From Methanomassiliicoccus luminyensis B10 (GTDB lineage Archaea > Thermoplasmatota > Thermoplasmata > Methanomassiliicoccales > Methanomassiliicoccaceae), in the NCBI RefSeq assembly GCF_000308215.1, contig NZ_CAJE01000012.1, forward strand, positions 434,001 to 498,000: a stretch of DNA of 64,000 nucleotides, in the 5' to 3' direction. The notes below the pieces were generated by a model. That model was not told the DNA's origin. It did not search any database and saw only the letters and a program-made list of their open reading frames with translations. Each line of letters starts with the position of its first letter. Position 1 is the first letter of the stretch. Made by a program: the position numbers and the translations under genes. Below, piece after piece: positions 28,884 through 45,956 of the stretch.

Positions 28884-29570
28884 TTACCTTCCTTCCCGGC
28901 CGGAGGGACGATGTCTTCCGCGGGTCGGGCGCCTTTCCATGCCGCAGAGCGATCCCGGAACGAAGCTCCTGCCGCCCTTCGCGCCTGCGATCGTCTCGGC
29001 CGGGTCGTTCCATTTCTTCGATCTGCATCTGGGGCAGGACTTGGGAAGCGCGTCCCCGTACAGCTTCCATTCGTGCCCGCATCTGGCGCATTTTCCTAGC
29101 GAGATCATCTTATCCCACCGAGAGGATCTGCACGCGGGGCATGATGTGGGCGGGGACGACCTCGGCCTCCAGGTGTGGCCGCATTTCCTGCATGTGCACT
29201 GTCGGCTGAGCGACATCCATTTGGTGGACTTGCACGACGGGCACCTCTTCGGGGACGGAGATCTGGATATCCACGAGTATCCGCATAGGTGGCATTCGAA
29301 TGAGTGGTACCCAATCTCGACCCATGTCGACATCCCGCAATGGGGACATCGCTCATCGCTACTCACCCAAGTGGTCCCGCAATCTGCGCATGTACGTTGC
29401 TCCAAGGCCGCCTCCGACCACCGTCCACTGTGGCACTTCGGACAGCGCTTCGGCGGATGGCTGCCCTTGGACAGCCAGGTATGGCCGCACCTGCCGCAGT
29501 GGAGGGTCCTGGCGCCTACGTTTTGGGACGGCCCGGGAAGATCACAGGAGAGCCGACCATCCACCATCAT
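28884..29570 (-). CDS. Tandem zinc-ribbon protein (about five ribbons)
   Basis: 228 residues. Repeated units of the form C-x2-CG-x-TW ... CP-x-C-x-S-x-x-W: CGRCGHTWLS/CPKCHSGRW, CADCGTTWVS/CPHCGMSTW, CHLCGYSWIS/CPSCKSTKW, CRKCGHTWRP/CPACRSSRW and CARCGHEWKL/CPRCRSKKW. No enzyme domain or membrane segment. It could bind DNA, RNA or proteins and may regulate the operon. The ATG overlaps the stop of the ATPase gene (ATGA). The basic tail (MERRPTRGRHRPSGREGR) is consistent with nucleic acid binding. Confidence 0.85.
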   Translation of the reverse strand: MMVDGRLSCDLPGPSQNVGARTLHCGRCGHTWLSKGSHPPKRCPKCHSGRWSEAALEQRTCADCGTTWVSSDERCPHCGMSTWVEIGYHSFECHLCGYSWISRSPSPKRCPSCKSTKWMSLSRQCTCRKCGHTWRPRSSPPTSCPACRSSRWDKMISLGKCARCGHEWKLYGDALPKSCPRCRSKKWNDPAETIAGAKGGRSFVPGSLCGMERRPTRGRHRPSGREGR

Positions 29571-30370
29571 ACAGCCCCAACCTTGTATCTTTTCGGCAGG
29601 ATGTAGATCTCCCCGTCGGCATCCGTGCCCACGCGCGCTTCCACCTCGTACACGTCGCGGACGAGGTCCTCGGTTATCACCGTCTTGGGATCCCCGATAT
29701 TGACGATCTCCCCCCTCCTCATGATGATGCAGGTGTCACAGTACCTCGCCATCAGCGATATGTCGTGCTCCGCCACCAGGACGGTCATGTCCGTCTTCGA
29801 CATGGCCTGCAGATATTCCATCACCTGCAGCTTGTATTTCATGTCAAGATGCGACGTCGGCTCGTCGACTAGCATCAGCTTCGGCTCCTGGACGTATGCC
29901 TTGGCGATCATGGCGCGCTGGCGTTCCCCGGAGGACAGCGTGGACACGTGATTGTGCCTGAGCTGGTCTATCCCGAACGTGCGGAGCGCCTTGCGGACGA
30001 TCATTTCGTCGTCCTTGGTCTCCCACCATATCCTGTTCCCGTACGGGTACCTGCCGAGCATGACCATCTCCATCACGGTCATGCCGAAGGTCGGCCCCGA
30101 TTCCGCGGGGACGGAGGCAACGAGCTTGGATATCTCCGAAGGTCTCAGCCCGGCGATGTCCCTGCCGGCCACGTGGATCGATCCAGAGGTCACGCCATGT
30201 ATCTTGGAGATGCACTTCATCATCGTGGACTTGCCGCACCCGTTCGGGCCTATCAGGCCGACCATGAGACCCCTGGCCAGGTCCAGGTTGATATCCTTAA
30301 GCGCCTCGAACCCGTCGAAGCTCTTATGAAGCCCTTTGATGCTCAGCGCCGCCTCATCCATTATACTCAC
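29567..30370 (-). CDS. ABC transporter ATP-binding protein (BtuD/FecE family)
   Basis: 267 residues. Walker A GPNGCGKST near residue 40, Q-loop region in VASVPAESGPTFG, signature LSSGERQRAMIAKAYVQEP, Walker B LMLVDEPTSHLD and switch His in VLVAEHD. The pattern is that of cobalamin/Fe-siderophore importers. The C-terminus has the family's TEDLVRDVYEVEARV segment. It overlaps the permease gene by 17 bases and is cytoplasmic, powering the FecCD permease. Confidence 0.95.
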   Translation of the reverse strand: MSIMDEAALSIKGLHKSFDGFEALKDINLDLARGLMVGLIGPNGCGKSTMMKCISKIHGVTSGSIHVAGRDIAGLRPSEISKLVASVPAESGPTFGMTVMEMVMLGRYPYGNRIWWETKDDEMIVRKALRTFGIDQLRHNHVSTLSSGERQRAMIAKAYVQEPKLMLVDEPTSHLDMKYKLQVMEYLQAMSKTDMTVLVAEHDISLMARYCDTCIIMRRGEIVNIGDPKTVITEDLVRDVYEVEARVGTDADGEIYILPKRYKVGAV

Positions 30371-31502
30371 GTCCTTTCTTCATGAGCATGTAGGCAAAGA
30401 CCGGTGTACCGATCATTGCCGTTATCGCTCCCACGGGGAGCTCCAGCGGAGATATGACTGTTCTGGCCAGCAGGTCGGCGAACAGCATGAGCATGGCCCC
30501 CAATACGATGGATGCCGGCATGATCAGCCTATGGTCCCCTCCGAGCGCCATCCTGCAGGCGTGAGGGATAACGAGCCCCACGAAGCCGATGATGCCGACG
30601 AACGCCACGCAGACCGCCGTGAGCACGGACGCCACGACCATCATCGATCTCTTGAACCTCCGGACGTTCAGGCCGAGCTGCTGGGCCTGTTCCTCCCCGT
30701 TTATGAACAGGTTGAACTCCCGGGCCCACAGCATGGCGATCAAGGAGATCCCCATCGCCGGCACGAACACGATCCAGGCGTTCTCCCAGGTGATGTTGGC
30801 GAACGACCCGAAGAGCCACCACATCGCGTCGGTGAGGTAGTCTTTTCCCAATGACAGGAATATCGTCTGGACCGACGAGAAGGCAAAGCCCACTATCACT
30901 CCGGCGAGGATGTAATTGGTGGACGACCCCCCGGAACCTTCGGCGACGGTCATGGTCAGGGCGAAGGCCACGAGACCGCCCACTATGGCGGCCAGAGGTA
31001 TGACGTACAATGAGCCGTTCCCGAGGAACGGCACCGTCGCTCCCAATGCGATGACCGCGACGGCGGCGCACCCTGCTCCGGATGATACTCCGGTGATGTA
31101 GGGGTCCACCAACGGGTTCCTTATGATAGCCTGGTACATGCATCCCGCGATGGCCAGGCCCGCGCCGACCCCGATGGCGGCGATCGCCCTCGGCAACCTC
31201 GCCACATATATGTACAGCTCGACGGTGTTGAGGTTATTTCCGCCCTTCATCAGCGCTGAGAACATCGCCGCGACGGCATCCGTGACCGGGATGATCCCGC
31301 CGGACGATATCGAGATGGATATCAGGAAGGCGACCAGCGCCATCAGGGCGCCGAACACCGTGATCACGATGAAGCGCCGTTTCTTGACATCGACATCGAA
31401 GACCTCATCCTCAGCGGGGGCGGCCCTCCTTTTCCTCGTTTTACGGGCGCCGCCCCTGCCCCCTTCGCCCTTTCCTCTCTTCAGTTTATCCAACGGAATC
31501 AC
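30354..31502 (-). CDS. ABC transporter permease (FecCD/BtuC family)
   Basis: 382 residues with about ten membrane helices. Family motifs: RLPRAIAAIGVGAGLAIAGCMYQAIIRNPLVDPYITGVSSGAGCAAV and GLVIPHACRMALGGDHRLIMPASIVLGAMLMLFADLLAR. It imports corrinoids, heme or ferric chelates. A GTG start with a good Shine-Dalgarno (ttgaggtg) follows one base after the stop of the propeller gene. The N-terminal 45 residues are strongly basic (KRGKGEGGRGGARKTRKRR), longer than usual. Confidence 0.93.
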   Translation of the reverse strand: MIPLDKLKRGKGEGGRGGARKTRKRRAAPAEDEVFDVDVKKRRFIVITVFGALMALVAFLISISISSGGIIPVTDAVAAMFSALMKGGNNLNTVELYIYVARLPRAIAAIGVGAGLAIAGCMYQAIIRNPLVDPYITGVSSGAGCAAVAVIALGATVPFLGNGSLYVIPLAAIVGGLVAFALTMTVAEGSGGSSTNYILAGVIVGFAFSSVQTIFLSLGKDYLTDAMWWLFGSFANITWENAWIVFVPAMGISLIAMLWAREFNLFINGEEQAQQLGLNVRRFKRSMMVVASVLTAVCVAFVGIIGFVGLVIPHACRMALGGDHRLIMPASIVLGAMLMLFADLLARTVISPLELPVGAITAMIGTPVFAYMLMKKGREYNG

Positions 31503-31503
31503 C

Positions 31504-33390
31504 TCAATAGTATTTTCGCAAGAACAGGAAGCAAGCTATGACGAACACCAAGAGCGCGAGCCACGACCAATGGTATAGGCCATTCTCGAGGACGATCTCC
31601 CCGCTGTCGCCGTATATCTTGCCCGCCACCTCGGATATGCAGTAGACCGCACCGTAGTCGTTGCCGACGTAGATCTTCCCGTCAATGACCGTGGGGGAGA
31701 CCATCGAGTACGAGTCCGCGGAGAAGGGAGTGAGCTGCAGCCTCCATATCTCGCTGCCATCTTCGGCGTCGATCGCCATCACCGCGCCGCCGGTGGGATA
31801 GAACGTCCCCGCCGAGTAGTCCATGGCGTAGAGTACACCGTCCGCTAGCGTCAAGGACGCCTTTATCATCTGGTACGCCTGGCTGGTCCAGACGACCCTC
31901 CCCTGGAGGTCGAACTTGTATATCGCGGAGACCGCATCGGACCCCGTCCCGTCGGCGCCCCTGAGCTTGGACGAGCCGGAACTCAGCGGAGATATGTACG
32001 CGTAAAAGCCGTCCTCGACCGCCACGGGATGATTGCATAGGACGTCCAGCTTCCAATCGTATTCGGAGCCGTCCGCGCCCTTCCCTGTGGCCGCATCGAT
32101 AGAGATCACGTACCCCGTCAGCGACGACAGGCCCCCATCAGAGCAGCATACGATGAGCTTTCCTTCGCGCGTCACCGCGATGCTGCCCGCGGAACCGGGG
32201 GTTCCGGGGTGCGGCTTGTTTTCATCCCTCAGGTCTATGACCTTCTGGACCCATATCTCCTTTCCGGTGGAAGCATCCAATGCGTGGACGTTGCCCCCGT
32301 AGCTGCCGATGAACAGCATGCGCACGCCGTCCACATCGGCGATCACTGGGGGATGGTAGTAGAAGCAGCCCCTGGTGCCCGAATAATCGCCCTTGGAGCC
32401 CGTGGCCGGCGGGTCATAGTCCCAGAGCAATGAGAACTTTTTCTCAGGGGTCAGGGAATAGCACAACACGCGGCCGTCCGAGGTGCCGAAATATATCGCT
32501 CCCGAATCGTAGACCGGGGTGGTCCCGCCGGTGAGGAAGGTCCTGCCGTTCCAGATGATGTCGCCGTTGCCGTCCACGGGATAGCTCATCTCCAGTTTGA
32601 GCGTGTCCAGGAGCGTCCCGTCGTAGCGGTCCAGGCAGTACACATCACCATTGGTGGCGGTTATGACGAGCGTGTCCCCGACGATGAGCGGCGTGGTCAC
32701 CTCGTAGCCCTGTCCGTATGCGTAATGGAACTCCCAGACCAGTTCTCCGGTGTATCTGTCGAGGCAGTACACCCAGGGGTCCCGGTCAGAGCCCGCGGCG
32801 CCGTATGATCCCCCCGTGGTGTGGTAGAGGAGGCCCCCGGCCACTACGATCTCGGAGTCCACGAACCCCGTGGAGTACGTCTTGTACCATTCGGGGGGAA
32901 CGAGCGCGCCCACCGTCCCGTACGAATCAGACACGCTGGATGACGACGAGTCCCCGCCGGCGGATATCCATGCCGTGGGTTCGTCAGGCGTCTCCGCCGG
33001 GGTGATGGACCCATCGGGATAGAAGCCGATGGCGAAAGTCCCCCCATCATACTGCCCCCCCATGGCCTCTCCCGGCATCCAGGCCCCGTTCCCGGCATCC
33101 CAGACATACAAGTTCCACCGGCAGGTCTGGTCCCCCACGGAGTGCTCGGCCAGGCCGCCGACGGCGGTGATGCCGGACCCGGACACGGACACGCTCAGGC
33201 CCAGCTTGCCCGCGCAATCCTGGGCCACCGACGCATACGATCCCTGGGCGGATATGTCGCACCAGTAAGTGGTGCCGTTGCCCATGTCTATGAGCAGCTT
33301 CCCGTCCCCCGCATCGGCCGTCGTCATCGGGAGAACGGGTACCATCACCATTAGAAGCACGGCGGCGACCGCCAGCGGCAATGCCTTCAT
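31504..33390 (-). CDS. Membrane-anchored PQQ beta-propeller protein with N-terminal DUF4430-like domain
   Basis: 628 residues. Signal peptide MKALPLAVAAVLLMVMVPVLP. A DUF4430-like domain follows (KLLIDMGNGTTYWCDISAQ...RWNLYVWDAGNGAWMPGEA, about residues 28-125); DUF4430 resembles the transcobalamin C-terminal domain. Then PQQ-type propeller blades: VYCLDRYTGELVWEF, VYCLDRYDGTLLDTL, VHALDASTGKEIWVQ and VMAIDAEDGSEIWRL. It ends in a membrane helix (HWSWLALLVFVIACFLFLRKYY). The ATG overlaps the stop of the binding-protein gene. Being operonic with BtuF/C/D-like genes, it is probably a ligand-capture or docking partner of the importer. Confidence 0.85.
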   Translation of the reverse strand: MKALPLAVAAVLLMVMVPVLPMTTADAGDGKLLIDMGNGTTYWCDISAQGSYASVAQDCAGKLGLSVSVSGSGITAVGGLAEHSVGDQTCRWNLYVWDAGNGAWMPGEAMGGQYDGGTFAIGFYPDGSITPAETPDEPTAWISAGGDSSSSSVSDSYGTVGALVPPEWYKTYSTGFVDSEIVVAGGLLYHTTGGSYGAAGSDRDPWVYCLDRYTGELVWEFHYAYGQGYEVTTPLIVGDTLVITATNGDVYCLDRYDGTLLDTLKLEMSYPVDGNGDIIWNGRTFLTGGTTPVYDSGAIYFGTSDGRVLCYSLTPEKKFSLLWDYDPPATGSKGDYSGTRGCFYYHPPVIADVDGVRMLFIGSYGGNVHALDASTGKEIWVQKVIDLRDENKPHPGTPGSAGSIAVTREGKLIVCCSDGGLSSLTGYVISIDAATGKGADGSEYDWKLDVLCNHPVAVEDGFYAYISPLSSGSSKLRGADGTGSDAVSAIYKFDLQGRVVWTSQAYQMIKASLTLADGVLYAMDYSAGTFYPTGGAVMAIDAEDGSEIWRLQLTPFSADSYSMVSPTVIDGKIYVGNDYGAVYCISEVAGKIYGDSGEIVLENGLYHWSWLALLVFVIACFLFLRKYY

Positions 33391-34757
33391 GCCGAGACCC
33401 CCCTGCTGTATTTGAGATAGTCGCGGTACGTGTCGTCGAAATATTTCGGGATCACGTCCAGCGGGTCCAGCGATATGAACTTCTCGGGGTTCAATATCTT
33501 GGCCATGAGCTCCGTCGCTTCCGCGAGCCTCGGCCCCGGCCTGGACAGTATGTCGTTCGCATCTCCGGAGAAGACATACACCTCCCCGTTCTGGAACGCG
33601 GGAGTGGCCTTCCACAATGGATCAAGGGAGTCTAGGAGGCGCTGGTATTCATCCTCCGTCGACACCGGGGTGCTCGACATGATCACGATCGCCTTCGGCT
33701 GCTTGGCATAGATCTGCTCCTTGGAGACCATGAACCATGACGAGGACTGCGAATCGAACGCTCCTACCCCTCCTGCGACAGAAATGACGTCAGACATGTA
33801 CGTCTGGGAACCGGCGGTCCACGGCGACGGGTCGGAGGACAGCGCGACGAAAACCCTTTTATCGGTCCTGCCGGCAATTCCCGAGACCACGTCCACCGCT
33901 GAGCGCAGTTCGCGATTCCCGGCGTTGGCGTTCTCCGAAAGCCCCAGGGCGCACCCCACGATCCATATGTTGTCGTACAGCGTGCCCAGGTCGGTCCCGT
34001 CGTAGAGGACCACGCAATTTATTCCGGACTTGCGTAGCTTATCGGCCATGGTAACATGCTCTCCCGTGCCGCCGTCGCAGAGGACCAGGTCCGGAGCGAG
34101 CTTGATTATCCATTCGTAGTTGGGGTCGGTGTATCCCCCGATGATCGATATGCGGCCGTCCTCCTTGGCGTCGACGATCTCCTGCGGGTAGTTGCTGTAC
34201 AGGTCCGTTCCGATGATGAGGCCGGCGCCGCCCACAAATGCCACCATCTCCGTCACCGACGGAGCCAGCGTGACCACCCTCAGCCCTTCCTCGCCGGCGG
34301 CGCTTCCGCGAGCATAGTTGTAATAGCTGTGCCCCGTGGCGTCCACGCCGGGGATCACGGTATCCGGACCGGACGCGCGCGCCCAGCATAAAATGTTATG
34401 CTCCGACGCGTCCACCGACGCCGGGTCCGCCTCGGCCCAGCCGTCCGTGGAGAGAGTGTAGAAAGCCCATTTTACACCGATGAGGTTTACCTGATCGTTC
34501 ACCGAGTACACGGTGCCGTCGTCCAGTATGCCACATTCATATCCTTGGATGTCGCAGGCAGCCTTGAGGGCGTCATAGCCGTTCATTCCCCCGGTGAACG
34601 TCATCTCCGTCCACACCACGTCCCAGTATCCGAAGTCGATGATCATCCCCTGCCTCTGGTCGGCGGATGATGCGGTGAACCCCAGCATCGGTATGGTCGC
34701 CAGGACCGCCACCGCGATGACGGCGGATGCGACGAGCTTGACCGTGATGGCGTTCAT
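33387..34757 (-). CDS. BtuF-like substrate-binding protein fused to a DUF4430-like domain
   Basis: 456 residues. Signal peptide (VASAVIAVAVLATIPMLGFTASS). Residues about 37-140 resemble DUF4430 (GMNGYDALKAACDIQGYE...WAFYTLSTDGWAEADPASV). Residues about 155-440 form a class III periplasmic-binding fold: RVVTLAPSVTEMVAFVGGAGLIIGTDLYSNYP, GGYTDPNYEWIIKLAPDLVLCDGG and VYVFSGDANDILSRPGPRLAEATELMAKIL. No lipobox Cys is evident. It delivers corrinoid, heme or metal chelate to the FecCD/BtuC permease. The N-terminal fusion is unusual and shared with other proteins of this locus. Confidence 0.88.
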   Translation of the reverse strand: MNAITVKLVASAVIAVAVLATIPMLGFTASSADQRQGMIIDFGYWDVVWTEMTFTGGMNGYDALKAACDIQGYECGILDDGTVYSVNDQVNLIGVKWAFYTLSTDGWAEADPASVDASEHNILCWARASGPDTVIPGVDATGHSYYNYARGSAAGEEGLRVVTLAPSVTEMVAFVGGAGLIIGTDLYSNYPQEIVDAKEDGRISIIGGYTDPNYEWIIKLAPDLVLCDGGTGEHVTMADKLRKSGINCVVLYDGTDLGTLYDNIWIVGCALGLSENANAGNRELRSAVDVVSGIAGRTDKRVFVALSSDPSPWTAGSQTYMSDVISVAGGVGAFDSQSSSWFMVSKEQIYAKQPKAIVIMSSTPVSTEDEYQRLLDSLDPLWKATPAFQNGEVYVFSGDANDILSRPGPRLAEATELMAKILNPEKFISLDPLDVIPKYFDDTYRDYLKYSRGVSA

Positions 34758-34761: not shown

Positions 34762-35619
34762 TCATGCCAGCAATGACGGGGGAATGTCTTCGGGAGTTAC
34801 GTCCCACTCAAAGCCTACGCTGTTCACCGAGGTTGTCTGACGGACCAGCGCGAAGTAACAGACCTTGGAGATGTCGAAACCGCCCATGACGGACTGGCTG
34901 TACACCCATTTATCCCCGTTCCAATGATACTGCGACCAGTATCTCCAGTCCTTTCCCACCCCCACGTCGGCGAGGCCGAAGAAGGACCATAGCCATCCGT
35001 TGGGAGTATTCTCCATGTCCATGTCGAGCTCCCAGCCGAGCCTCTCCGCTACATCCTGGAAAGCGTACGCCGCGTCAATGCCCTCGCCGCACACCCAGAA
35101 CCCGGCCTGCCTCTCCTCGGCGGTGAGGTAGGAGGTCACGTGGCTGTTGGCATTGTAATCTTCATCGAACTTGATGAAGAACCATACTTTTTGTGCTATG
35201 GAGAAATCGGGAGCGGTGTACGAAGTTTTTCCGTCCTTGATCTCCACATCAGACAGCATCAGGGCGATGTGCGTGCGGCCATTCAGTACGATGGCATCGT
35301 TCACGGACGATAGCGGGGACCATTTCGCTTTCGACCATGTCCACATGACCCACTTCTGATCCTCCCCGGCCATCACGCCGTCAACGGAGGAAACTTGGCC
35401 CGCGGAGTTGAACACCACGTTCTCGATTGCGTTGTCGAACAGCTCCCTCAACGAGGAACCCTGGGCCTTTTTCTCAACTTTTTCCCCGTCCAGCATATAA
35501 TAAACGGTGACCCTGTCGTCGACGGCGGGGTCCTCATTATTACCGGTGTCCCCATCGTTAAGGTTCCCTATCACAACATAGACGAGAGCCCCCGAAACCA
35601 TGAGGGCCGCTATCACCAA
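34762..35619 (-). CDS. Secreted protein with two DUF4430-like domains; N-terminus probably frameshifted
   Basis: 285 residues from a TTG codon. One domain has SSLRELFDNAIENVVFNSAGQVSSVDGVMAGEDQKWVMWTWSKAKWSPLSSVNDAIVLNGRTHIALML. A second follows (about residues 150-265, GIDAAYAFQDVAERLGWELDMDMENTPNGWLWSFFGLADVGVGKDWRYWSQYHW). The frame opens inside a hydrophobic helix. An ATG at 35642 with agGCGGG upstream would read MDKK and stop, but one extra A in the A6 run (35631-35636) would join it to ITIALVIAALMVSGALVYVV, giving a normal signal peptide. First gene of the leftward operon. Ligand unknown. Confidence 0.8.
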   Translation of the reverse strand: MVIAALMVSGALVYVVIGNLNDGDTGNNEDPAVDDRVTVYYMLDGEKVEKKAQGSSLRELFDNAIENVVFNSAGQVSSVDGVMAGEDQKWVMWTWSKAKWSPLSSVNDAIVLNGRTHIALMLSDVEIKDGKTSYTAPDFSIAQKVWFFIKFDEDYNANSHVTSYLTAEERQAGFWVCGEGIDAAYAFQDVAERLGWELDMDMENTPNGWLWSFFGLADVGVGKDWRYWSQYHWNGDKWVYSQSVMGGFDISKVCYFALVRQTTSVNSVGFEWDVTPEDIPPSLLA

Positions 35620-35724: not shown

Positions 35725-35741
35725 TTGTATTAATTAAAAGT
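35725..35741 (-). promoter_or_regulatory. Promoter of the leftward surface/importer operon
   Basis: Reading leftward, cttttaattaatac forms a BRE/TATA-like element ending just downstream of the first palindrome. It predicts a transcript start near 35705 and a leader of about 60 nt to the probable ATG at 35642. Confidence 0.5.
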
Positions 35742-35760
35742 ATTGGATGGATAATCCAAT
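35742..35760. promoter_or_regulatory. Operator palindrome 1
   Basis: ATTGGAT-GGATA-ATCCAAT, a perfect 7-bp inverted repeat with a 5-bp spacer. It abuts the upstream side of the leftward TATA element, a place where a bound regulator would affect TBP/TFB. Confidence 0.7.
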
Positions 35761-35770
35761 ATTAATATGA

Positions 35771-35789
35771 GTTGGATATTGCATCCAAC
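35771..35789. promoter_or_regulatory. Operator palindrome 2
   Basis: GTTGGAT-ATTGC-ATCCAAC, same architecture as palindrome 1. Its centre lies 29 bp from that of palindrome 1, close to three helical turns, which would place two bound dimers on one face. It also lies about 20 bp upstream of the candidate small RNA promoter. Confidence 0.7.
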
Positions 35790-35832
35790 TAATGCCTGAA
35801 TAAATGTTATTTATCTTGGACCTCTGCCTGAA

Positions 35833-35917
35833 GGTGAGCCGTTCCCCAGCCGCCTAGAATGCCGGCGGGGTCATCTTTCGGGTGGGACGGACGACCGTCT
35901 GGCTAGCCAAGTTTTTA
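35833..35917 (+). ncRNA. Candidate small RNA in the divergent control region
   Basis: A TATA-like tgttatttatc (35805-35815) lies about 25 bp before the first base. The ends pair, GGTGAGCC (35833-35840) with GGCTAGCC (35901-35908), 7 of 8 positions including one GU. Inside are CCGCC/GGCGG (35850-35854 with 35864-35868) and GACGG-acga-CCGTC (35886-35899). A T5 run at 35912-35916 follows. No coding frame of quality. It may be an sRNA regulated by the same operators, or part of a leader. Confidence 0.4.
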
Positions 35918-36052
35918 TCCGCCCAAATGCGAGGCGTTGGCGCTCTTCGATCGATCGTCATTGCGATTTCATTTTTCTGTATCAATTGTACCGACAATAT
36001 TTTAATAAATATCAATCGTTCAAGTGGAGGATACATCCATATCGCTTATTAT

Positions 36053-36071
36053 ATTGGATGTTACATCCAAT
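36053..36071. promoter_or_regulatory. Operator palindrome 3
   Basis: ATTGGAT-GTTAC-ATCCAAT, identical arms to palindrome 1. It overlaps the end of the rightward TATA-like cttattatattgg (36045-36057) and the predicted transcript start of the gene at 36106, the typical site of a repressor. Confidence 0.7.
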
Positions 36072-36105: not shown

Positions 36106-38184
36106 ATGATAGCATCAATTTGGAGAAAAACGGCTGCCATCGGCATGGTGGTCGCCATCATGGTCATGGCAATACCATTGATGGATCTCAATGCGGCGGC
36201 TGATGAAGAAGACTATTGGTTCTACGTTGACCTAACGCCTGACTATGAGCTGAACGGCGAGTGGATCCAAGGTACCGGGCCGACCCCGGCCGAGGCATTC
36301 ATCAATGCTGTGAACGCTAGATATGGCGCAGAGAACAACGATATCGATCCAAGTGGTTGGATAACTAAGGTCGACGGTTTAGCTACAGAAGGTGTTTGGG
36401 GAGGTACCTGGGAGTACTTTAACTGGGCCCATTTTGGATATGTTGATGGCGTGTTCGATCTCGATGCGCACCTAATGGGGGGAGCGAAGCCAACTACCAA
36501 CAATCAATATGCGATTTTCAGGACCCAGTACGTATGGGTTGAGATAATCTCGTATGAGGGCGCTAGTACTCTAACTGAAGCGGAGGTCCTCGGAACCGCC
36601 GAGTACGGTGATGCTGCCACATGGCCGCAGGTCATGGGCCCTGTTCCTGATGACTACACCCCTAAAGCTGTCTCCGCCACCTATGACGGAACCGAGTGGA
36701 ATGTAGTATGGTATATCCTTCCTAACGCCCAGCTCAACCATGTTGACGAGTATGCTAAACTTACCGTTCCGGCATATGGATACGCGCAGCGGGATGAAGC
36801 GGCGGGGTTGGAGCCCTATGTCCCCGGAATATCCACAGACTTCATCACCGACGTCACCAGAGGCTACGCCCCACTGACGGTGCAGTTCACTGACAGGACC
36901 TTGGACGCCGGGGATTGGCAGTGGGACTTCGGCGACGGGACCAGCAGCACAGACCAGGATCCTTCGCACACATACAGCACGCCGGGCAGATACACCATTA
37001 CTCTGACCACGACCAATGCCGGCGGCAACCACAATGCGAGCAGGACCGTGACTGTGGAGCAGGCGACCGAACCCGGTGCCCCCACCAATCTGGCGGCCGC
37101 AGCCGGTGACAGCCAGGTCGTCCTGACCTGGAACGCTCCCGCGAACGACGGAGGCGCCTCGATATCCCACTATGTCGTCTATAAGGACGGCGTCAGCATC
37201 GGCACGTACACGGGGACCTCCGCTGCCATAACCGAGCTGACCAACGGCAACCAGTACAAGTTCACTGTCGCCGCCGTCAACTCGGTCGGAGAGAGCGAGA
37301 GGTCCAATGAGGCTACCGCTACACCGAACGATGATGTCGAGGGCTTCACACCGGATACGGAGTTCCAGGTGACCGCCACATCCGATGTCAATGGCAGATT
37401 GAGCGTCACGTATGATCCCACCGTACTGAGATTCATGTCGGCCACCGGCGCGACGAGCATCGTCAACACGGAGGGAGCGGCACATATTACAACCGCAGGC
37501 GCGAACGGACCGGTGGAAGTAAAGTTCGCGGTCGTAGAGAACGCACCGATCGGACTTACCACGGTCACCCTGAACGGGGAGAGCAAGGTCTTCAACATCG
37601 TTCCCGGCGAACCTGCGATCTACAGCTCCTTCGTGATCGTCGAGCAGGACGAAGCGCGGAACATCGCGAACGTGTCTCTCTATAAGGTCTCCCAGATCGC
37701 CGGGTTCAAGCTGGTGTTCCACTACGACAGCGGCACTCCAGTCATGAACGATCTGGCCGGGCTCGGCTCCAGGGGCAGCGTTTCCACGGCGGTCGACGAA
37801 GCGGGTAAGACCATCACCGTGGTCTGGGCCAGTTCGGACAATGTCAACTTGAAAGGCATATTGTTCTCGATCAGCGGCGCCAGCGGCCTTGCGCTGTCGC
37901 CGGCCGAGGCCGATCTCAGGCACATCACGGATGACCTCAGTGTAAGCGTCCGAGTGGATGTCGGAGTAGCCAGCAGCTACGAGGACGCAGTGGCTCGTGA
38001 TCCCAACCCCAGTACGGACCTGAACAATGATGGAGCGACCGATCTCGCGGACCTCATCCTGCTGATGCAGCACCTCGCCGGTTATGAGGTGAGCATCGAC
38101 GGGGACAACGCGGACCTCGATGGCGATGGGGTCGTGGACATCCGTGACGCGATAGTCCTGCAGGACCTCATAACCGTGGCATGA
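36106..38184 (+). CDS. Secreted DUF4430-PKD-FN3-dockerin protein
   Basis: 692 residues. Signal peptide about 1-31; DUF4430-like domain about 35-148; PKD 244-318 (APLTVQFTDRTLDAGDWQWDFGDGTSS); fibronectin III 323-407. A beta-rich module spans 413-500 and a cohesin-like beta-sandwich 501-620 (VSLYKVSQIAGFKLVFHYDSG, ILFSISGASGLALSP). A type I dockerin occupies 636-692 with two calcium loops, DLNNDGATDLADLILLMQHL and ADLDGDGVVDIRDAIVLQDL. No membrane anchor, so the dockerin is the likely means of retention, presumably on the cohesin of the 44034 protein. Shine-Dalgarno gggagaagg precedes the ATG. Operator palindrome 3 overlaps its promoter. Confidence 0.9.
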   Translation: MIASIWRKTAAIGMVVAIMVMAIPLMDLNAAADEEDYWFYVDLTPDYELNGEWIQGTGPTPAEAFINAVNARYGAENNDIDPSGWITKVDGLATEGVWGGTWEYFNWAHFGYVDGVFDLDAHLMGGAKPTTNNQYAIFRTQYVWVEIISYEGASTLTEAEVLGTAEYGDAATWPQVMGPVPDDYTPKAVSATYDGTEWNVVWYILPNAQLNHVDEYAKLTVPAYGYAQRDEAAGLEPYVPGISTDFITDVTRGYAPLTVQFTDRTLDAGDWQWDFGDGTSSTDQDPSHTYSTPGRYTITLTTTNAGGNHNASRTVTVEQATEPGAPTNLAAAAGDSQVVLTWNAPANDGGASISHYVVYKDGVSIGTYTGTSAAITELTNGNQYKFTVAAVNSVGESERSNEATATPNDDVEGFTPDTEFQVTATSDVNGRLSVTYDPTVLRFMSATGATSIVNTEGAAHITTAGANGPVEVKFAVVENAPIGLTTVTLNGESKVFNIVPGEPAIYSSFVIVEQDEARNIANVSLYKVSQIAGFKLVFHYDSGTPVMNDLAGLGSRGSVSTAVDEAGKTITVVWASSDNVNLKGILFSISGASGLALSPAEADLRHITDDLSVSVRVDVGVASSYEDAVARDPNPSTDLNNDGATDLADLILLMQHLAGYEVSIDGDNADLDGDGVVDIRDAIVLQDLITVA

Positions 38185-38221
38185 GGAGCGGGGTGAGTTC
38201 AGACGATCGAGAAGATATTTA

Positions 38222-38268
38222 GAGGCTCGGCCTCAGGCGGTGGCTCCGGCCACCGCCAATCGTTTACC
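38222..38268 (+). repeat. Duplicated double-hairpin element, copy 1
   Basis: GAGGC-tcg-GCCTC is followed one base later by a perfect 9-bp stem GGCGGTGGC-tccg-GCCACCGCC and then aatcgtttacc. The same 47 bases recur after the next gene at 43828-43874. It lies 38 bp after the stop codon, between co-oriented surface genes, and no T-tract follows. It may be a processing, stability or partial termination element. Confidence 0.85.
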
Positions 38269-38390: not shown

Positions 38391-41300
38391 ATGACAGAAC
38401 ACAAAGTCGAAACAGTGCTCATATCATTGATACTGTTCGTTAGTATCATCGCTCCACTGGTCGCTGTCGATCTAGGCAGCGCCGCGAGCGATTGGCCCAG
38501 CGTACCGGGGAACAATGAGAATCCCTGGATCTCGGATGCATTGTCCCCCACTATCGATGAAGATCTCGCCATCAAGTGGAGCGTTATCGGGGCTACGTCG
38601 GGCATGAGCGGATGGGAAGTCCCCAGTACGGCGATTACGGTGGGCGACTATGCCTATTATTATGATCAGCTCAATAAAAAGCTAATGAAAGTCCACATCG
38701 AGGACGGCGCAGAGGCGGCTTCCGCGCCCCTGACGGCTAGCGGGTATAACTTGCCAGTAACCTATGGCAACGGCAAATTGTTCGTGCCCATGATCAATTC
38801 CAAAGTCAGCATCTACGACGCGGACACGATGGAAAAGATAGGGACCACGGATACGAAGTTAACGAAATGGAACGGCATGCAGGGACCCGTGACATATTAT
38901 GATGAATACATATATCTCGGGACCTACGGCAGCACATATCCTGGTATCGACTTCGCGTGCTTCCATGATAACGGCACATTGGCATGGTCGTTGGACGGCG
39001 GAGGCTGGGGATACTCACTGGCCCCCCAGTTCATCGAGGTCGGCGATAAGACCTACTGCGTAGTAGCCTCTAAAGGCTACGGGCAAGCAGGGATCACCGA
39101 CGGAGGTTCCACAATCTATGTCCTGGACCCTGCCACTGGATATGAGTATAGCAGGGTAAAGATCAGCGATGAATACAACCAGGGAGGCATCTCGCATTAC
39201 GAAGGCCGCATATATGTGGCCACCCAGAACGATGCCGCGACGGCCACTCACATACATTCATATGTCGTGGGAGCGGACGGCTCACTGTCCGACGAGAAGG
39301 TCTGGACCTCCAGCCTCACCGGTGGCACCCAGAGCGCGCCGGTGATCTACAACGACCGCATCTACCTCGGAAGCGGCGGGGCCACCATGGGCGCCAACAG
39401 GAACATCGAGGTCATCAGCATCGGCAGCGACGGCAGCATGACCTCGGTATACGACATACCAATAAAAACGAAGGGTACGCTCACCCTGACAACCGCGTAT
39501 GCCACCGCCGAGAACGACTACACTGTCTACCTGTATGTCACGCCGTACGACGGCACGAGCACAAACCCAGACATATACATCATTAAAGACAGCGCACATC
39601 AGACGGCCGCGCATTACAAGGGGATCGAGCTGCCCGGAGAGGGGGACCAGTACTCCTTCAACAGTGTGACCATATCCAGCCAGGGGTATCTCCTGTTCAA
39701 GAGCGACGTAGCTCTGTGGTGCGTGGAGGCGGTACGCGAAGAGTCCACACCAGGTACGGAGTTCCAGGTGTCCGCTTCGTCCGATGCCGATGGAAAACTG
39801 ATCGTCACGTACAATCCCTCTGCATTGAGGTTCGTATCGGCCACTGGTGCGACGAACATCGTCACTGCTGAAGGAACGATCACCATCACGACAGCGGGCG
39901 CGAACGGACCGGTGGACGTAACGTTCGAGGTCGTGGAGGACCCGCTTGTAGGACCTACTAAGGTAACCTTGAATGGGGCCGATGAGGTCTTCAAGATCGT
40001 TCCTAGGACCTTCGCACCCGGCATTCCCACCAACCTGGCGGCCGCCGCCGGCAATGGCCAGGTCACCCTGACCTGGAACGCCCCCGAGAACAATGGGGGC
40101 GAGGCGATAAGAGGATACATCATATACGTGAACGGCTACAAGTTCAGCACTTACACCGTCGGCGAGTACAACGAGACCGCAACAACCATAACCGGGCTGA
40201 CCAACGGCAGAGAATATACTATCACCATATCTGCCTTCAACCCGACGGGGGAGAGCGGCAGGTCCGTCGAGATCAAGGCTACGCCGACCGATGTGGTGAT
40301 CGTTCCTGAGGTCCCCAGTGCCCCCACCAATCTGGCGGCCGCAGCCGGTGACAGCCAGGTCGTCCTGACCTGGAACGCTCCCGGCAGCAACGGGGGCGCC
40401 GCGATCACTCACTACGTCGTCTACCGGGACGGCACCAAGATCGACGGCATGTTCACCGGGACGACAGCGACCGTAACCGGGTTGACCAACGGCAACCAGT
40501 ACAAGTTCACTGTCGCCGCCGTCAACTCGGTCGGAGAGAGCGAGAGGTCCAATGAGGTCTCGGCCACGCCGGTCGCTCCGGCCTCCACTTACACTTATAA
40601 AATAAGCGGAGGCACAGTGGAGATCACCAAATATACTGGGTCAGGAGGCATAGTGGAGATACCCAGCACGATCGAGGGATTGCCCGTTACTGCCATCGGC
40701 ACCAACGCGTTCCAGAACAAGGCCACTCTGACCTCGGTCACGATACCGGACAGCGTGACCAGCATCGGCACCCAGGCATTCATGGGATGCTCTGGCCTTA
40801 TCTCGGTGAGCATAGGCAGTGGTGTGACTAGCATCGGGACCAACGCATTCTACAAGTGCGCCGCCCTGACCTCCGTTACCATCCCGAGCAAAGTGATCAG
40901 CATCGGTACCAATGCGTTCCGGGACTGTACCGCCCTGACCGAGATCAACGTTGACGCCGACAACACCGCATTCAAAAGTGTCGATGGCGTGGTGTACAAC
41001 AAGACCGTAACCACCCTGATACTGTGTCCTGCGGGATGGTCCGGTTCGCTGACCATACCTAGCAGCGTGACCAGCATCGGCGACAGCGCGTTCATGGGCT
41101 GTGCCGGCCTGACCGAGGTGATAATGCTAAGCAGTGTGACCAGCATCGGAACAGGTTCGTTCAACGGTTGCACTGGCCTGACCTCGATCGCGATACCAGG
41201 CAGTGTTACGAGCATCGGGAACAACGCGTTCAGCGGATGCACCAAGCTGGCCGCGGTAACGATACCGAACAGCGTCATTAGTATCGGGACTAGCGCGTTC

Positions 41301-43796
41301 AGCGGATGCACCAAGCTGGCTTCGGTCACCATAGGCAGTGGTGTGACCAGCATCGGAGACTACATGTTCCGGTATTGCTACGCCCTGACCTCGGTCATTA
41401 TCCCGAACAACGTGAACACCATCGGCAATAACGCGTTCCAAGGGTGCAACAACCTGACCACAGCGACAATAGGCAGTGGTGTGAACAAGATCAGCAACAG
41501 CGCGTTCAGCGGATGCACCAAGCTGGCCGAGATCATCGTTGACGCCGACAACGCAGTATACAGAAGCGTAGAGGGCATAGTATACAACAAGACCGTAACC
41601 ACTCTGATACTGTGTCCTGCGGGATGGTCCGGTTCGCTGACCATACCTAGCAGCGTGACCAGCATCGGCGACAGCGCGTTCAGCGGATGCACCAAGCTGG
41701 CCGCGGTAACGATACCGAATGGCGTGATCACCATCGGCGAAGACGCATTCACCGGCTGTATCGGTTTGACCACGGTCACTATTCCAAGCAGCGTGACCAC
41801 CATAGGTGAAGATGCGTTCACTGGCTGTACCGCCCTGGCCGAGATCATCGTTGACGCCGACAACGCAGTATACAGAAGCGTAGAGGGCATAGTATACAAC
41901 AAGACCGTAACCACTCTGATACTGTGTCCTGCGGGATGGTCCGGTTCGCTGACCATACCTAGCAGCGTGACGAGTATCAATAGCGAAGCGTTCCTTGGCT
42001 GCACCGGTCTGACCTCGGTCACGATACCGGGCAGTGTGACCAGCATCGGCGCGAAAGCGTTCCAAGAGTGCACCGCCCTGGCATCTGTCACGATAGGCAA
42101 CGGGGCCGGCACCACCATCGGCACGCAAGCGTTCTCCTACTGCCCGGTCCTGAGCATAGTGACCATAGGCAGTGGTGTGACTAGCATCGGGAACAGTGTG
42201 TTCAGGGACTGCCCCGCCCTGACCTCGATCGTCATACCGAACAGCGTGACCAGCATCGGTACCAATGCGTTCGCATACTGCACCGGCCTGACATCGGTCA
42301 CAATCGGCAACGGGGTCGCCAGCCTTGGACAATACACATTCCAAGGGTGCACCGCCCTGGAAAGACTGGTCATAGGCAGTGGCATGATCAGCATCGGCAA
42401 CGACGTGTTCTATGGATGTACCGGTCTGATCACGGTCACGATACCGAACAGCGTGACCGGCATCGGGAACAACGCGTTCTACGGATGTACCGGTCTGACC
42501 AAGGTCATCATAGGCAGTGGTGTCACTACCATCGGCAGCTCTTTCTCCGGCTGCACCGCCCTGACCACCGTGGTGTTCACCGGCAATGCACCGACATCGG
42601 TCAGCAGCGCTTGGGTCAGAAATGTTCCCAATCCGGTAGTTCACTACCATCTGGGTGCCGAAGGGTTCACCACGCCGACCTGGAATAACGTCGCGTGCTA
42701 TCCTCTGGCCATACCTGATTTCGAGGCCGACGTAACTTCGGGCAACGCCCCGCTGACGGTGCAGTTCACCGACAAGAGCCTAGGCGCCGCATCGGTGCAA
42801 TGGGACTTCGGTGACGGAACCACCAGCACCGCCTGGGACCCGTCGCATACGTACAGTGCACCGGGCACATACACGGTCACCCTGACCACGATAAATGCCG
42901 GTGGTGGCAGCACCCAAACCACCATGACCGTGACCGTGATCGCGCCGCCCGTAGAGTTGCCCGTAGGGACCGAGGTCATGGTGTCTGCTTCGTCCGATGC
43001 CGATGGAAAACTGATCGTCACGTATGACCCCACCGTACTGAGGTTCGTATCGGCCACTGGTGCGACGAACATCGTCACTGCTGAAGGAACGATCACCATC
43101 ACGACAGCGGGCGCGAACGGACCGGTGGACGTAACGTTCGCGGCATTGGCGAACCTGGGACCTACCACGGTCACCCTGAACGGGGAGAGCAAGGTCTTCA
43201 ACATCGTTCCCGGCGAACCTGCGAGCTATAGCTCGTTCGTAATCGTAGAACAGGACGGCCAGCAGAACACCGCGGATGTCTCGCTCTACAAGGTCCCCAA
43301 AGTCGCCGGCTTCAAGCTGGTGTTCCACTACACTGGCGGAACTCCGGTCGTTAGCGACCTGGCCGGGCTCGGTGCCAAGGGTATCTTCTCGACAGCGGTC
43401 GACGAGGTTGGCAAGACGATAACCATAGTATGGGCCAGTTCGAGGAACATGGTCCCGAGCGGCATCTTGTTCTCGATCAGCGGAGCTGACGGCCTGACAC
43501 TATCGCCGGCCGATGCCGAGCTCAGGTACATCGCGGACGATGTAAGTGTCAGTATCCAGGTGATCGTCGGAGTGGCCAGCAGCTACGAGGACGCTGTGAG
43601 TCAGGATCCCAACCCCGCTCCCGCCGCTGACCTGAACGGGGATGGGGAGACGAACCTCGCGGACCTCATCCTGCTGGTGCAGTTCCTTGCCGGTAACGAG
43701 GTGAACATCGACGAGGACAGCGCGGACCTCGATGGCGACGGGATAGTGGACATTCGTGACGCGATAGCCCTGCAGGAGATCATAACCGTGGCATGA
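38391..43796 (+). CDS. Giant secreted propeller-FN3-LRR-PKD-dockerin protein
   Basis: 1801 residues. Signal peptide about 1-28; beta-propeller-like domain about 30-455, very similar to that of the 44034 protein; a beta-rich module about 458-541. Two FN3 domains span about 541-730 and BspA-type LRRs about 755-1415 (some 25 units such as SVTSIGTNAFYKCAALTSVTIP). PKD about 1443-1522, the beta-rich module again about 1525-1608, and a cohesin-like beta-sandwich about 1609-1728. The C-terminal dockerin (1746-1801) has DLNGDGETNLADLILLVQFL and ADLDGDGIVDIRDAIALQEI. Likely an adhesin docked on the membrane-held cohesin. A Shine-Dalgarno (gaggagg) precedes the ATG. Long exact DNA repeats occur inside the LRR part. 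Confidence 0.92.
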   Translation: MTEHKVETVLISLILFVSIIAPLVAVDLGSAASDWPSVPGNNENPWISDALSPTIDEDLAIKWSVIGATSGMSGWEVPSTAITVGDYAYYYDQLNKKLMKVHIEDGAEAASAPLTASGYNLPVTYGNGKLFVPMINSKVSIYDADTMEKIGTTDTKLTKWNGMQGPVTYYDEYIYLGTYGSTYPGIDFACFHDNGTLAWSLDGGGWGYSLAPQFIEVGDKTYCVVASKGYGQAGITDGGSTIYVLDPATGYEYSRVKISDEYNQGGISHYEGRIYVATQNDAATATHIHSYVVGADGSLSDEKVWTSSLTGGTQSAPVIYNDRIYLGSGGATMGANRNIEVISIGSDGSMTSVYDIPIKTKGTLTLTTAYATAENDYTVYLYVTPYDGTSTNPDIYIIKDSAHQTAAHYKGIELPGEGDQYSFNSVTISSQGYLLFKSDVALWCVEAVREESTPGTEFQVSASSDADGKLIVTYNPSALRFVSATGATNIVTAEGTITITTAGANGPVDVTFEVVEDPLVGPTKVTLNGADEVFKIVPRTFAPGIPTNLAAAAGNGQVTLTWNAPENNGGEAIRGYIIYVNGYKFSTYTVGEYNETATTITGLTNGREYTITISAFNPTGESGRSVEIKATPTDVVIVPEVPSAPTNLAAAAGDSQVVLTWNAPGSNGGAAITHYVVYRDGTKIDGMFTGTTATVTGLTNGNQYKFTVAAVNSVGESERSNEVSATPVAPASTYTYKISGGTVEITKYTGSGGIVEIPSTIEGLPVTAIGTNAFQNKATLTSVTIPDSVTSIGTQAFMGCSGLISVSIGSGVTSIGTNAFYKCAALTSVTIPSKVISIGTNAFRDCTALTEINVDADNTAFKSVDGVVYNKTVTTLILCPAGWSGSLTIPSSVTSIGDSAFMGCAGLTEVIMLSSVTSIGTGSFNGCTGLTSIAIPGSVTSIGNNAFSGCTKLAAVTIPNSVISIGTSAFSGCTKLASVTIGSGVTSIGDYMFRYCYALTSVIIPNNVNTIGNNAFQGCNNLTTATIGSGVNKISNSAFSGCTKLAEIIVDADNAVYRSVEGIVYNKTVTTLILCPAGWSGSLTIPSSVTSIGDSAFSGCTKLAAVTIPNGVITIGEDAFTGCIGLTTVTIPSSVTTIGEDAFTGCTALAEIIVDADNAVYRSVEGIVYNKTVTTLILCPAGWSGSLTIPSSVTSINSEAFLGCTGLTSVTIPGSVTSIGAKAFQECTALASVTIGNGAGTTIGTQAFSYCPVLSIVTIGSGVTSIGNSVFRDCPALTSIVIPNSVTSIGTNAFAYCTGLTSVTIGNGVASLGQYTFQGCTALERLVIGSGMISIGNDVFYGCTGLITVTIPNSVTGIGNNAFYGCTGLTKVIIGSGVTTIGSSFSGCTALTTVVFTGNAPTSVSSAWVRNVPNPVVHYHLGAEGFTTPTWNNVACYPLAIPDFEADVTSGNAPLTVQFTDKSLGAASVQWDFGDGTTSTAWDPSHTYSAPGTYTVTLTTINAGGGSTQTTMTVTVIAPPVELPVGTEVMVSASSDADGKLIVTYDPTVLRFVSATGATNIVTAEGTITITTAGANGPVDVTFAALANLGPTTVTLNGESKVFNIVPGEPASYSSFVIVEQDGQQNTADVSLYKVPKVAGFKLVFHYTGGTPVVSDLAGLGAKGIFSTAVDEVGKTITIVWASSRNMVPSGILFSISGADGLTLSPADAELRYIADDVSVSIQVIVGVASSYEDAVSQDPNPAPAADLNGDGETNLADLILLVQFLAGNEVNIDEDSADLDGDGIVDIRDAIALQEIITVA
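40995..41093 (+). repeat. LRR-region DNA repeat, diverged copy
   Basis: 99 bases that match 41583-41681 with one visible mismatch (c at 41015 against t at 41603), offset 588 bp, a multiple of three. They encode the KTVTTLILCPAGWSGSLTIP segment and the start of the next LRR unit. Confidence 0.85.
41523..41659 (+). repeat. LRR-region DNA repeat, exact copy A
   Basis: 137 bases identical to 41835-41971 (period 312 bp, exactly 104 codons). They encode an island between LRR blocks (AEIIVDADNAVYRSVEGIVY, then KTVTTLILCPAGWSG). Identity at silent positions indicates recent duplication or conversion. Confidence 0.9.
41835..41971 (+). repeat. LRR-region DNA repeat, exact copy B
   Basis: Second exact copy of the 137-base unit at 41523-41659, in the same frame and orientation. 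Confidence 0.9.
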
Positions 43797-44033: not shown

Positions 44034-45956
44034 ATGACAAAGCACAATGATAGAGCGGCGATCCTGTCGCTGATACTGGCCGCATGTTTCATCGCTCCGC
44101 TGTTCGCTGCCGGCCAGAGCAGCGCCGCGAGCGATTGGCCCAGCGTACCGGGAAGCAACGAAAGCCCCTGGATCTCGGATGCATTGTCCCCGACGATCGA
44201 TGATGGTCTCGCCATCAAGTGGAGCGTTATCGGAACTACGTCTGGGATGAGCGGATGGGAAGTCCCCAGTACGGCGATTACGGTGGGTGACTATGCCTAT
44301 TATTATGACCTCCTCGCAAAGAAATTATTGAAAGTCAACATCGAGGACGGCACGGAAGTAGCTTCCGACGACCGGACCATAGTTGGGATGTACAATGTGC
44401 CGCTGACTTACGCCAACGGCAAATTGTTCGTGCCCCAATACAAGGCCGGTGTGGTTAATGTTCTGATCTACGACGCGAACACAATGGAAAAGATCGGGGA
44501 AACGCCGTCGTCCAACAGGCTGCTTAAGGGGAACGGCATGCAGGGGCCCGTGACCTACTACGACGGGCGCATCTACCTCGGGACCTACGGCGGCACCGCC
44601 GTGGGCATGGACTTCGCGTGCTTCACCGAGAACGGCGAATACGTGTGGGGAATGGACGGCGGGAGCTGGGGATACGTGATGATCCCACAGTTCATCGAGG
44701 TCGGCGATAAGACCTACTGCGTAGTAGCCTCCAAAGGCTACGGGCAAGCAGGTGTCACCGACGGAGGCTCTACGGTTTACGTCCTGGATCCAGCCACCGG
44801 GCAGGAATACAGCCGGGTTAAGATCAGCGACGAATACGTACAGGGAGGCATCTCCAGCTACGAGGGCCGCGTGTATGTGGCAACCCAGAACGATGTCGCG
44901 TCGGTCACGCATATACACTCTTATGTCGTAGGAGCGGACGGCTCGCTGTCAGATGAGAAGGTCTGGACCTCTAGCCTCACCGGCGGAACGCAAAGTGTAC
45001 CGGTGATCTACAACGACCGCATCTACCTCGGAAGCGGCGGGGCCACCATGGGCGCCAACAGGAACATCGAGGTCATCAGCATCGGCAGCGACGGCAGCAT
45101 GACCTCGGTATACAATATACCGATCAAAACGAAGAGCTCGCTCTCTCTGACCACCGCCTATGCCACCGCCGAGAATGACTATGCTGTCTACCTGTACTGC
45201 ACGCCGTACGACGGCATGGATGACAATCCAGAGGTATGTATTATTAAGGACAGCGCACATCAGACGGTCGCGAAGTATAAGGAGATAGAGCTGCCCGGCG
45301 AAGGGGACCAGTACTCCTTCAACAGCGTGACCATATCTGGTCAGGGATATCTCCTGTTCAAGAGCGACGTAGCTCTGTGGTGCGTGGAGGCAGTACACGA
45401 AACGGACCCCATATTGAGAGCTTCGTCCGTTTCGGGCACAGTGGGCGATACGGTCACCGTCAATGTCAGCATCGAGAACAATCCAGGGATCCTGGGCAGC
45501 GTGCTCAATGTGACATATGATCCCAACGTGCTCGAAGTACTATCCGCGAAGGCGGGGAATATCAGTTCCAACGTGCTATTCTATGCCAACACGGAGGAAC
45601 CGGGCAAGGTCAAGATGAGCTGGTTGCCCAGCGAGGGAGTCTACACTGACGGCTCGATAATGGTGATCGAGTTCAAGATAAAAGAGACGACGGCAGGGTC
45701 TACATCGATATCGATCAAGGACGGTGGAACGTCCGATCTGGACAAGAACCTCATCTCTGCACGGATCGTCAACGGGACCGTCACGATCGCCTCCACGCCG
45801 CCGGCTGAGAATCCTTCGACGGACGATGACGCCCCAAAGTCGAACGACGACCCGCTGCTCATCGCGATCACCCTGGTCGCCGCAATAGCGGTGATAGGGG
45901 CTGCGTTCGCCTTGTTCTGGAAAAAGAAGAGGAACGGCGGAATGACTCAGAAGTGA
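44034..45956 (+). CDS. Membrane-anchored propeller-cohesin protein (candidate scaffoldin)
   Basis: 640 residues from MTKHNDRAAILSLILAACFIAP, chosen over ATG 44016 because aaaggagg lies 7 bases before it. Signal peptide about 1-28; beta-propeller-like domain about 30-455, closely related to that of the 38391 protein. A cohesin domain follows, about 457-585 (SGTVGDTVTVNVSIENNPGI, NVTYDPNVLEVLSAKAGNIS, DGSIMVIEFKIKETTAGSTSI, NGTVTIA), then an acidic linker. A C-terminal helix with KKKR (about 605-632) fixes it in the membrane. It would present the cohesin at the surface to bind the dockerins encoded by the two genes upstream. Cohesin type and binding are inferred from sequence only. Confidence 0.9.
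   Translation: MTKHNDRAAILSLILAACFIAPLFAAGQSSAASDWPSVPGSNESPWISDALSPTIDDGLAIKWSVIGTTSGMSGWEVPSTAITVGDYAYYYDLLAKKLLKVNIEDGTEVASDDRTIVGMYNVPLTYANGKLFVPQYKAGVVNVLIYDANTMEKIGETPSSNRLLKGNGMQGPVTYYDGRIYLGTYGGTAVGMDFACFTENGEYVWGMDGGSWGYVMIPQFIEVGDKTYCVVASKGYGQAGVTDGGSTVYVLDPATGQEYSRVKISDEYVQGGISSYEGRVYVATQNDVASVTHIHSYVVGADGSLSDEKVWTSSLTGGTQSVPVIYNDRIYLGSGGATMGANRNIEVISIGSDGSMTSVYNIPIKTKSSLSLTTAYATAENDYAVYLYCTPYDGMDDNPEVCIIKDSAHQTVAKYKEIELPGEGDQYSFNSVTISGQGYLLFKSDVALWCVEAVHETDPILRASSVSGTVGDTVTVNVSIENNPGILGSVLNVTYDPNVLEVLSAKAGNISSNVLFYANTEEPGKVKMSWLPSEGVYTDGSIMVIEFKIKETTAGSTSISIKDGGTSDLDKNLISARIVNGTVTIASTPPAENPSTDDDAPKSNDDPLLIAITLVAAIAVIGAAFALFWKKKRNGGMTQK

Follow-up and report, generated by a model that had tools for sequence, protein, structure and literature searches.

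A recurrent promoter palindrome and a proposed corrinoid and cobalt regulon in Methanomassiliicoccales

What do three copies of one perfect palindrome control between a leftward importer operon and a rightward series of cohesin-dockerin genes? The question was raised by a 64-kb stretch of the genome of Methanomassiliicoccus luminyensis B10, here called the window (C12:434001-498000; 60.5% G+C), in an assembly of 2,620,233 bases and 26 contigs. The original prediction saw in the palindromes a switch of this divergent locus, by which one dimeric regulator joins both arms in one regulon.

Three palindromes between divergent genes

The exact word TTGGAT-N5-ATCCAA was found three times in the window, at 35743-35759, 35772-35788 and 36054-36070. 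Letter by letter, the sequence bears out what had been described, namely three palindromes beginning at 35742, 35771 and 36053 with the same 5-bp spacer and 29 bp between the first two. Likewise, no other full copy was present anywhere in the 64-kb window, not even when a single mismatch was allowed. Under a first-order Markov model 0.003 exact copies are expected in a stretch of this size and composition, and the Poisson probability of at least three is approximately 5e-9. With up to three mismatches there were 19 copies vs 19.5 in shuffles; only the strict word is informative, because the looser count is no higher than chance.

The promoter placing that had been claimed was also recovered by eye. 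A leftward TATA-like stretch on the minus strand (approximately 35728-35740) abuts palindrome 1. On the other side, a rightward TATA-like stretch (approximately 36044-36055) abuts palindrome 3, which lies between it and the ATG at 36106, 36-52 bp upstream of the latter. The features of the locus and the genes at operators elsewhere in the same genome are given in Table 1.

Table 1. Features of the window (positions in the window) and genes at operators in the M. luminyensis genome
Feature	Position	Strand	Remarks
Operator palindrome 1	35742..35760	.	ATTGGAT-GGATA-ATCCAAT, outer pair A..T
Operator palindrome 2	35771..35789	.	GTTGGAT-ATTGC-ATCCAAC, outer pair G..C
Operator palindrome 3	36053..36071	.	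ATTGGAT-GTTAC-ATCCAAT, outer pair A..T
First gene of leftward operon, predicted secreted or membrane-anchored protein	34762..35619	-	no Pfam or NCBIfam match
BtuF-like substrate-binding protein	33387..34757	-	Peripla_BP_2 PF01497 8.4e-29; N-terminal domain related to the transcobalamin-like domain
Beta-propeller (PQQ_2) surface protein	31504..33390	-	PF13360 1.9e-22; predicted N-terminal transcobalamin/haptocorrin beta-domain fold, 32968-33321
BtuC/FecCD-type permease	30354..31502	-	PF01032 4e-84
ABC ATPase (BtuD type)	29567..30370	-	PF00005 9e-31
Zinc-ribbon array protein	28884..29570	-	4-bp overlap with the ATPase gene
Surface protein PKD-fn3-dockerin, first rightward gene	36106..38184	+	PF18911, PF00041, PF00404
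Surface protein LRR_5-fn3-PKD-dockerin	38391..43796	+	regulon membership by position only
Cohesin protein, C-terminal membrane anchor (by eye)	44034..45956	+	PF00963 5e-22; regulon membership by position only
Own-genome target: CobD-like aminotransferase and CbiZ			
Own-genome target: CobT			TIGR00303, 401 bits, cut-off 240
Own-genome target: Met8/HemA/HemC/CobA operon			by eye
Own-genome target: CbiT/CbiL operon			by eye
Own-genome target: divergent binding-protein/BtuC pair with CobN			
Own-genome target: dockerin-like protein with BtuC-type permease			
Own-genome target: CobN			TIGR02257, 954 bits, cut-off 822; CobN at two target regions, score given once
Own-genome target: CbiC			PF02570
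Own-genome target: locus of the window			
Own-genome target: binding-protein/BtuC operon			
Own-genome target: propeller protein, then CbiQ/CbiO-like genes			by eye
Own-genome target: Peripla_BP_2 operon			
CbpA-like peptide gene and CbpB	L011:6225-7774 (own genome C12:514.2-515.8 kb); peptide 7682-7774	- (peptide)	exact operator directly before the peptide gene, which in turn precedes CbpB

Distribution and promoter position of the word

The whole genome (2.62 Mb) contained 18 exact copies where 0.12 are expected, and the reversed-pattern control gave none; these counts rule out chance for the word. When the spacer was allowed to vary (TTGGAT-N0..20-ATCCAA) there were 20 matches, 18 of them with N5, one nested in an N5 site and one with N20, and opening the inner base pair (TTGGA-N7-TCCAA) gave 25 matches vs 1 for the control. 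The 18 sites represent 15 promoter regions, and the random scatter away from promoters that the original prediction had feared did not occur. A chance origin or a repeat artefact would agree with the three-mismatch count in the window. It is refuted for the exact word, and left with a negligible probability, by the genomic excess and by the restriction of the exact word to the order and to promoters.

Exact sites were detected in 37 of the 41 genomes searched of the order Methanomassiliicoccales. The four site-free genomes all belong to a single family (f6), and all 15 genomes of the family of M. luminyensis carried 6-18 exact copies. A set of 245 genomes drawn from the phylum comprised 39 of the order, of which 36 had the exact word, and 53 others of the class, of which 2 had it; among the remaining 153 it was present in 44, mostly as single copies. 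The full word TTGGATGATACATCCAA was found mostly in archaeal records titled Methanomassiliicoccales, Methanomassiliicoccus, Methanomethylophilaceae, Methanoplasma and the like, together with single matches in unrelated bacteria. One exact operator match (L047:4538-4622, genome G001) was the anticodon arm of tRNA-Ser(GCT). Some further background copies probably have this origin too, the same word recurring in other orders, and the arm will regularly give false positives when the operator word is searched for.

With both strands counted, 151 distinct 41-mers gave the consensus aRTTGGATGWWWCATCCAAYt, and pairs of sites were often separated by about 30 or 72 bp, partly as homologous copies. With the loci L139, L140 and L193 left out, 128 of 148 distinct sites were located at most 300 bp from a called gene start vs 732 of 5000 random points, and only 4 of the 148 were inside a called ORF vs 3709 of the 5000. 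The median distance from site centre to called start was 52 bp. With the gene taken to lie on the right, profiling of 128 sequences around sites with a simple hand-made matrix, used without a shuffled control, put the best TATA-like match in most cases 15-40 bp before the site, commonest at approximately 35 or 15 bp upstream of its centre, and in a smaller group approximately 15 bp downstream of the centre. The leftward pair of our locus belongs to the smaller group, with the site upstream of the TATA-like match.

A TATA-like match 15-40 bp upstream would put the operator over or just before the transcription start, and one about 15 bp downstream would put it over the TATA/BRE edge; both are typical repressor positions. 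Mainly repression is suggested by this placement, and the regulator is most likely a repressor. If it instead activated genes of corrinoid acquisition during starvation, the minority of sites upstream of the TATA-like match, with the leftward pair of the window among them, would be accounted for. These are outnumbered by the sites at or downstream of the match, which makes an activator rather unlikely.

Perfect inverted repeats are also able to form hairpins, and for some sites the presumed transcription start is on the upstream side, as would suit an RNA stem-loop or another leader element. A DNA operator is nevertheless strongly preferred, and the RNA element very improbable, because 44 of the 148 distinct sites serve divergent genes, some sites lie upstream of TATA-like matches, and the flanks are symmetric too, in a profile symmetrised by both-strand counting; in the window, moreover, the only Rfam family was a tRNA. 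The cobalamin riboswitch (RF00174) controls btuCDF, cbi/cob and cobalt uptake genes and thus has the same kinds of targets as the palindrome, but it is an RNA, and its covariance model matched neither the window nor a single one of the order's 41 genomes, whereas it did match 8 of 14 control genomes. This absence is in keeping with a protein regulator.

Genes behind the sites

In the M. luminyensis genome, 12 of the 15 promoter regions lie before genes for corrinoids, cobalt or tetrapyrroles, or before importers of the BtuCDF type (Table 1), some of them assigned by eye, and most NCBIfam matches of the importers are below the curated cut-offs. In the order as a whole, importers, cobyrinate/cobyrate synthases, chelatases and cobalt uptake proteins made up the leading families of the 145 first genes beside exact sites; the commonest Pfam domains include Peripla_BP_2 (n = 16), CbiA (n = 8), GATase_3 (n = 6), NAD_binding_7 (n = 6), CbiX (n = 4), CbiM (n = 3) and FecCD (n = 3). 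These are raw counts of genes beside sites only. They cover 145 of 160 adjacent proteins, five at loci of doubtful lineage (L139, L140, L193), five at the end of the list (L212-L214) and another five for their length having been set aside. The locus counts are not independent because, at several loci, one genome is included twice under different names.

The operator word and its palindromic extension, the distribution in genome and order, the promoter placement and the identity of most targets, all computed here, are best explained if the palindromes are operators of one dimeric regulator of corrinoid and cobalt acquisition and biosynthesis in most of the Methanomassiliicoccales, for which we estimate a probability of about 0.84. 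We infer that a single dimeric DNA-binding protein would bind all the sites across the order and would respond to corrinoid or cobalt sufficiency, repressing its targets mainly by sitting over the start of transcription or over the TATA/BRE region. In the window it would control the BtuFCD-type importer with its transcobalamin-like surface domains on the left and at least the first dockerin surface protein on the right. The operator role that the original prediction gave to the palindromes is supported, but a switch of this divergent locus was too narrow a view, the locus being one of several in an order-wide corrinoid and cobalt regulon. Against the corrinoid reading, many target families (Peripla_BP_2, FecCD, ABC) serve iron or haem too, and the closest PDB relative of the BtuF-like protein in the window is an iron-binding protein (2e-17; B12-binding proteins follow from 8e-17).

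Three of the 15 promoter regions have no obvious fit: C3:18839, at a distance of 290 bp from its nearest gene, an AsnC regulator; the peptide-maturase locus of CbpA/CbpB; and a pair of a Zn-dependent dehydrogenase and a TrpD-like gene. CbpB is a radical SAM peptide maturase (TIGR04163, 479.7 bits, cut-off 375), and the 31-residue peptide beside it resembles CbpA (TIGR04164, 27.8 bits, E 1.3e-6, below the cut-off of 35). The locus also has a divergent amidohydrolase, and through the operator the radical-SAM peptide is placed in a B12/cobalt context. A near-identical CbpA-like peptide was seen at an operator in another genome of the order (G003, L102:4533-4661). The Zn-dependent dehydrogenase and the TrpD-like phosphoribosyltransferase stand behind two operators (L013:9599-11782), and this dehydrogenase adjoins sites in several genomes; as a guess, the pair could be engaged in lower-ligand chemistry.

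Of 40 other genomes, 3 (G026, G032, G039; one genus of another family) have a full-length orthologue of the first gene of the leftward operon, and in all three the exact operator is found 60-78 bp upstream, as expected if the site is conserved in related genomes. In G026 the gene order of the window is kept behind the exact site. Weaker relatives of the gene in G001, G029, G035 and G037 had no exact site. A transcobalamin-like domain was looked for in the C-terminal part of the product of the window gene and not found (probability 6%), and a predicted model of this product, made from a two-row alignment, was left out at pLDDT 32.

For the domain at 32968-33321 of the beta-propeller protein, a model built from eight relatives (pLDDT 85) gave VIA Z values of 9.9-11.3 to the beta domains of haptocorrin, transcobalamin and intrinsic factor, the best being haptocorrin 4kki at 11.3. 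The Ruminococcus protein 3u7z was also among the structural matches (Z 10.5), and the next unrelated group was at 7.0. The Foldseek E values were not significant (best transcobalamin chain 0.02), and the sequence profile found no solved structure, with one match at E 0.57. The domain is accordingly described as a predicted fold of the cobalamin-binding beta domain. The likeness to the C-terminal beta domain of transcobalamin, haptocorrin and intrinsic factor extends over 91-95 aligned residues at 11-17% identity; the domain of the window differs in being archaeal and in having no alpha-barrel domain, and its B12 binding is putative. The N-terminal domain of the BtuF-like protein was aligned by hhalign with A4 at a probability of 94.9 and E 4.8e-8. 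By this modelled fold the operator points to unstudied surface proteins as candidate B12 catchers.

In four genomes (L014:4550-7016, L057, L069, L198) an operator is followed by a conserved cluster that encodes a propeller protein with a transcobalamin-like domain, a protein of 165-169 residues and CbiQ/CbiO-like proteins. Zinc-ribbon array proteins recur in or beside the regulon, in the window (28884-29570) and at L051, L146 and L176.

Candidate regulators and related systems

The regulator gene was not found. Of the Fur, AsnC and DtxR candidates, which were checked by distribution, the first two are rejected as the common regulator and DtxR is left as a possible one. A Fur- or DtxR-type sensor of iron, cobalt or nickel, with metal rather than corrinoid homeostasis as the object of the regulon, would be in line with Fur genes adjoining sites of at most one mismatch in 9 of 30 Fur loci (8 places), with a site directly upstream of the Fur gene in some genomes (G003, G009, G011) and with the cobalt uptake genes CbiM and CbiQ/O among the targets. 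The 6-5-6 form of the palindrome also recalls the Streptomyces nickel regulator Nur. Fur, however, had no match in 10 genomes that are at least 90% complete and carry 2-11 exact sites (G002, G004, G005, G013, G015, G017, G018, G020, G029, G037), for which reason it is regarded as a target and not as the common regulator. DtxR matches were obtained in all 41 genomes and showed no correlation with the sites; they were strong in most, including the site-free G019 and G022, but weak in G024 with its four sites, and a site was present in none of 10 DtxR loci. Since CbiC, CobT, CobN and CbiZ among the targets point to corrinoids, a metal sensor is considered unlikely and a corrinoid or cobalt regulator is preferred. 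At L015:368-1270 two Fur-family genes in tandem were noticed, with a large divergent gene on one side and, on the other, a CbiM gene whose operator has one mismatch.

The AsnC gene at L005:9146-9589 looked autoregulated and was the best candidate of this kind in the M. luminyensis genome. It was rejected because site-bearing genomes of family f2 have no close orthologue, close orthologues are present in the site-free f6 genomes, and a site was near it in just 1 of 20 AsnC loci. The site of another AsnC-like gene (L069:4573-5541) also precedes a divergent surface gene. An iterated HMM started from one AsnC helix-turn-helix retrieved three related genes in the loci and no more. Zinc-ribbon proteins adjoin sites in a few genomes, one of them with a weak HTH_7 match; the protein at L051:5243-5662 has a weak resolvase-type helix-turn-helix at its end.

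These methanogens live by corrinoid-dependent methyl transfer in guts and rumens, and to our knowledge the regulation of vitamin B12 genes in archaea is largely an open field. The nearest precedent is the archaeal CBL-box, reportedly proposed by Rodionov et al. in 2003 as the site bound by a B12 regulator postulated for some archaea; as far as we know, the order Methanomassiliicoccales had not yet been described then. Both are DNA operators, not riboswitches, proposed for archaeal B12 genes, and the present word occurs beyond the order, within the phylum, mostly in single copies. In the limited literature searched, we found no operator of this kind, no paper on a cobalamin regulon in Methanomassiliicoccales, and none on the CBL-box with cobalamin in archaea or on cobopeptin; the operator word itself gave one match, in primers only (PMC7857596). 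A fixed operator of 17-21 bp offers a bait for finding the regulator and, in a single step, identifies a large part of the order's corrinoid regulon.

The leftward arm resembles a bacterial system in its composition. BtuG of Bacteroides is described as a beta-propeller surface B12 binder encoded with a B12 importer (PMC6143338), and the window too has a beta-propeller surface protein encoded with an importer. The likeness is one of description; the archaeal propeller is of the PQQ_2 type and fused to a transcobalamin-like domain.

Cohesin and dockerin domains are encoded side by side in the rightward arm, as in cellulosome-type assemblies, but Pfam detected no polysaccharidase domain in the three proteins, and the locus shares its operators with a corrinoid importer. 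At the N-terminus of the first dockerin protein (36106) a search for a transcobalamin-like domain was negative (probability 4%). The gene of this protein is the only one of the three with its own site; upstream of 38391 and 44034 no copy was present even when up to two mismatches were allowed. The proposal of one dimeric regulator for both arms is therefore supported as far as the shared, conserved and promoter-bound operator goes, but not for the later two cohesin-dockerin genes. A wider picture would be a dedicated archaeal corrinoid-scavenging programme under one regulator of undescribed kind, in which cohesin-dockerin assembly, transcobalamin-fold domains and beta-propellers would act in a cellulosome-like manner on B12 instead of polysaccharide, and CbpA would serve as a cobalt or corrinoid chelator alongside the importers and biosynthesis genes; we hold it to be doubtful, if a little less so than a metal sensor or an activator. 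The two dockerin genes of the window also share a feature at their ends: each is followed by a G+C-rich inverted repeat, GGCGGTGGC..GCCACCGCC, and the copies at 38220-38270 and 43825-43875 are nearly identical.
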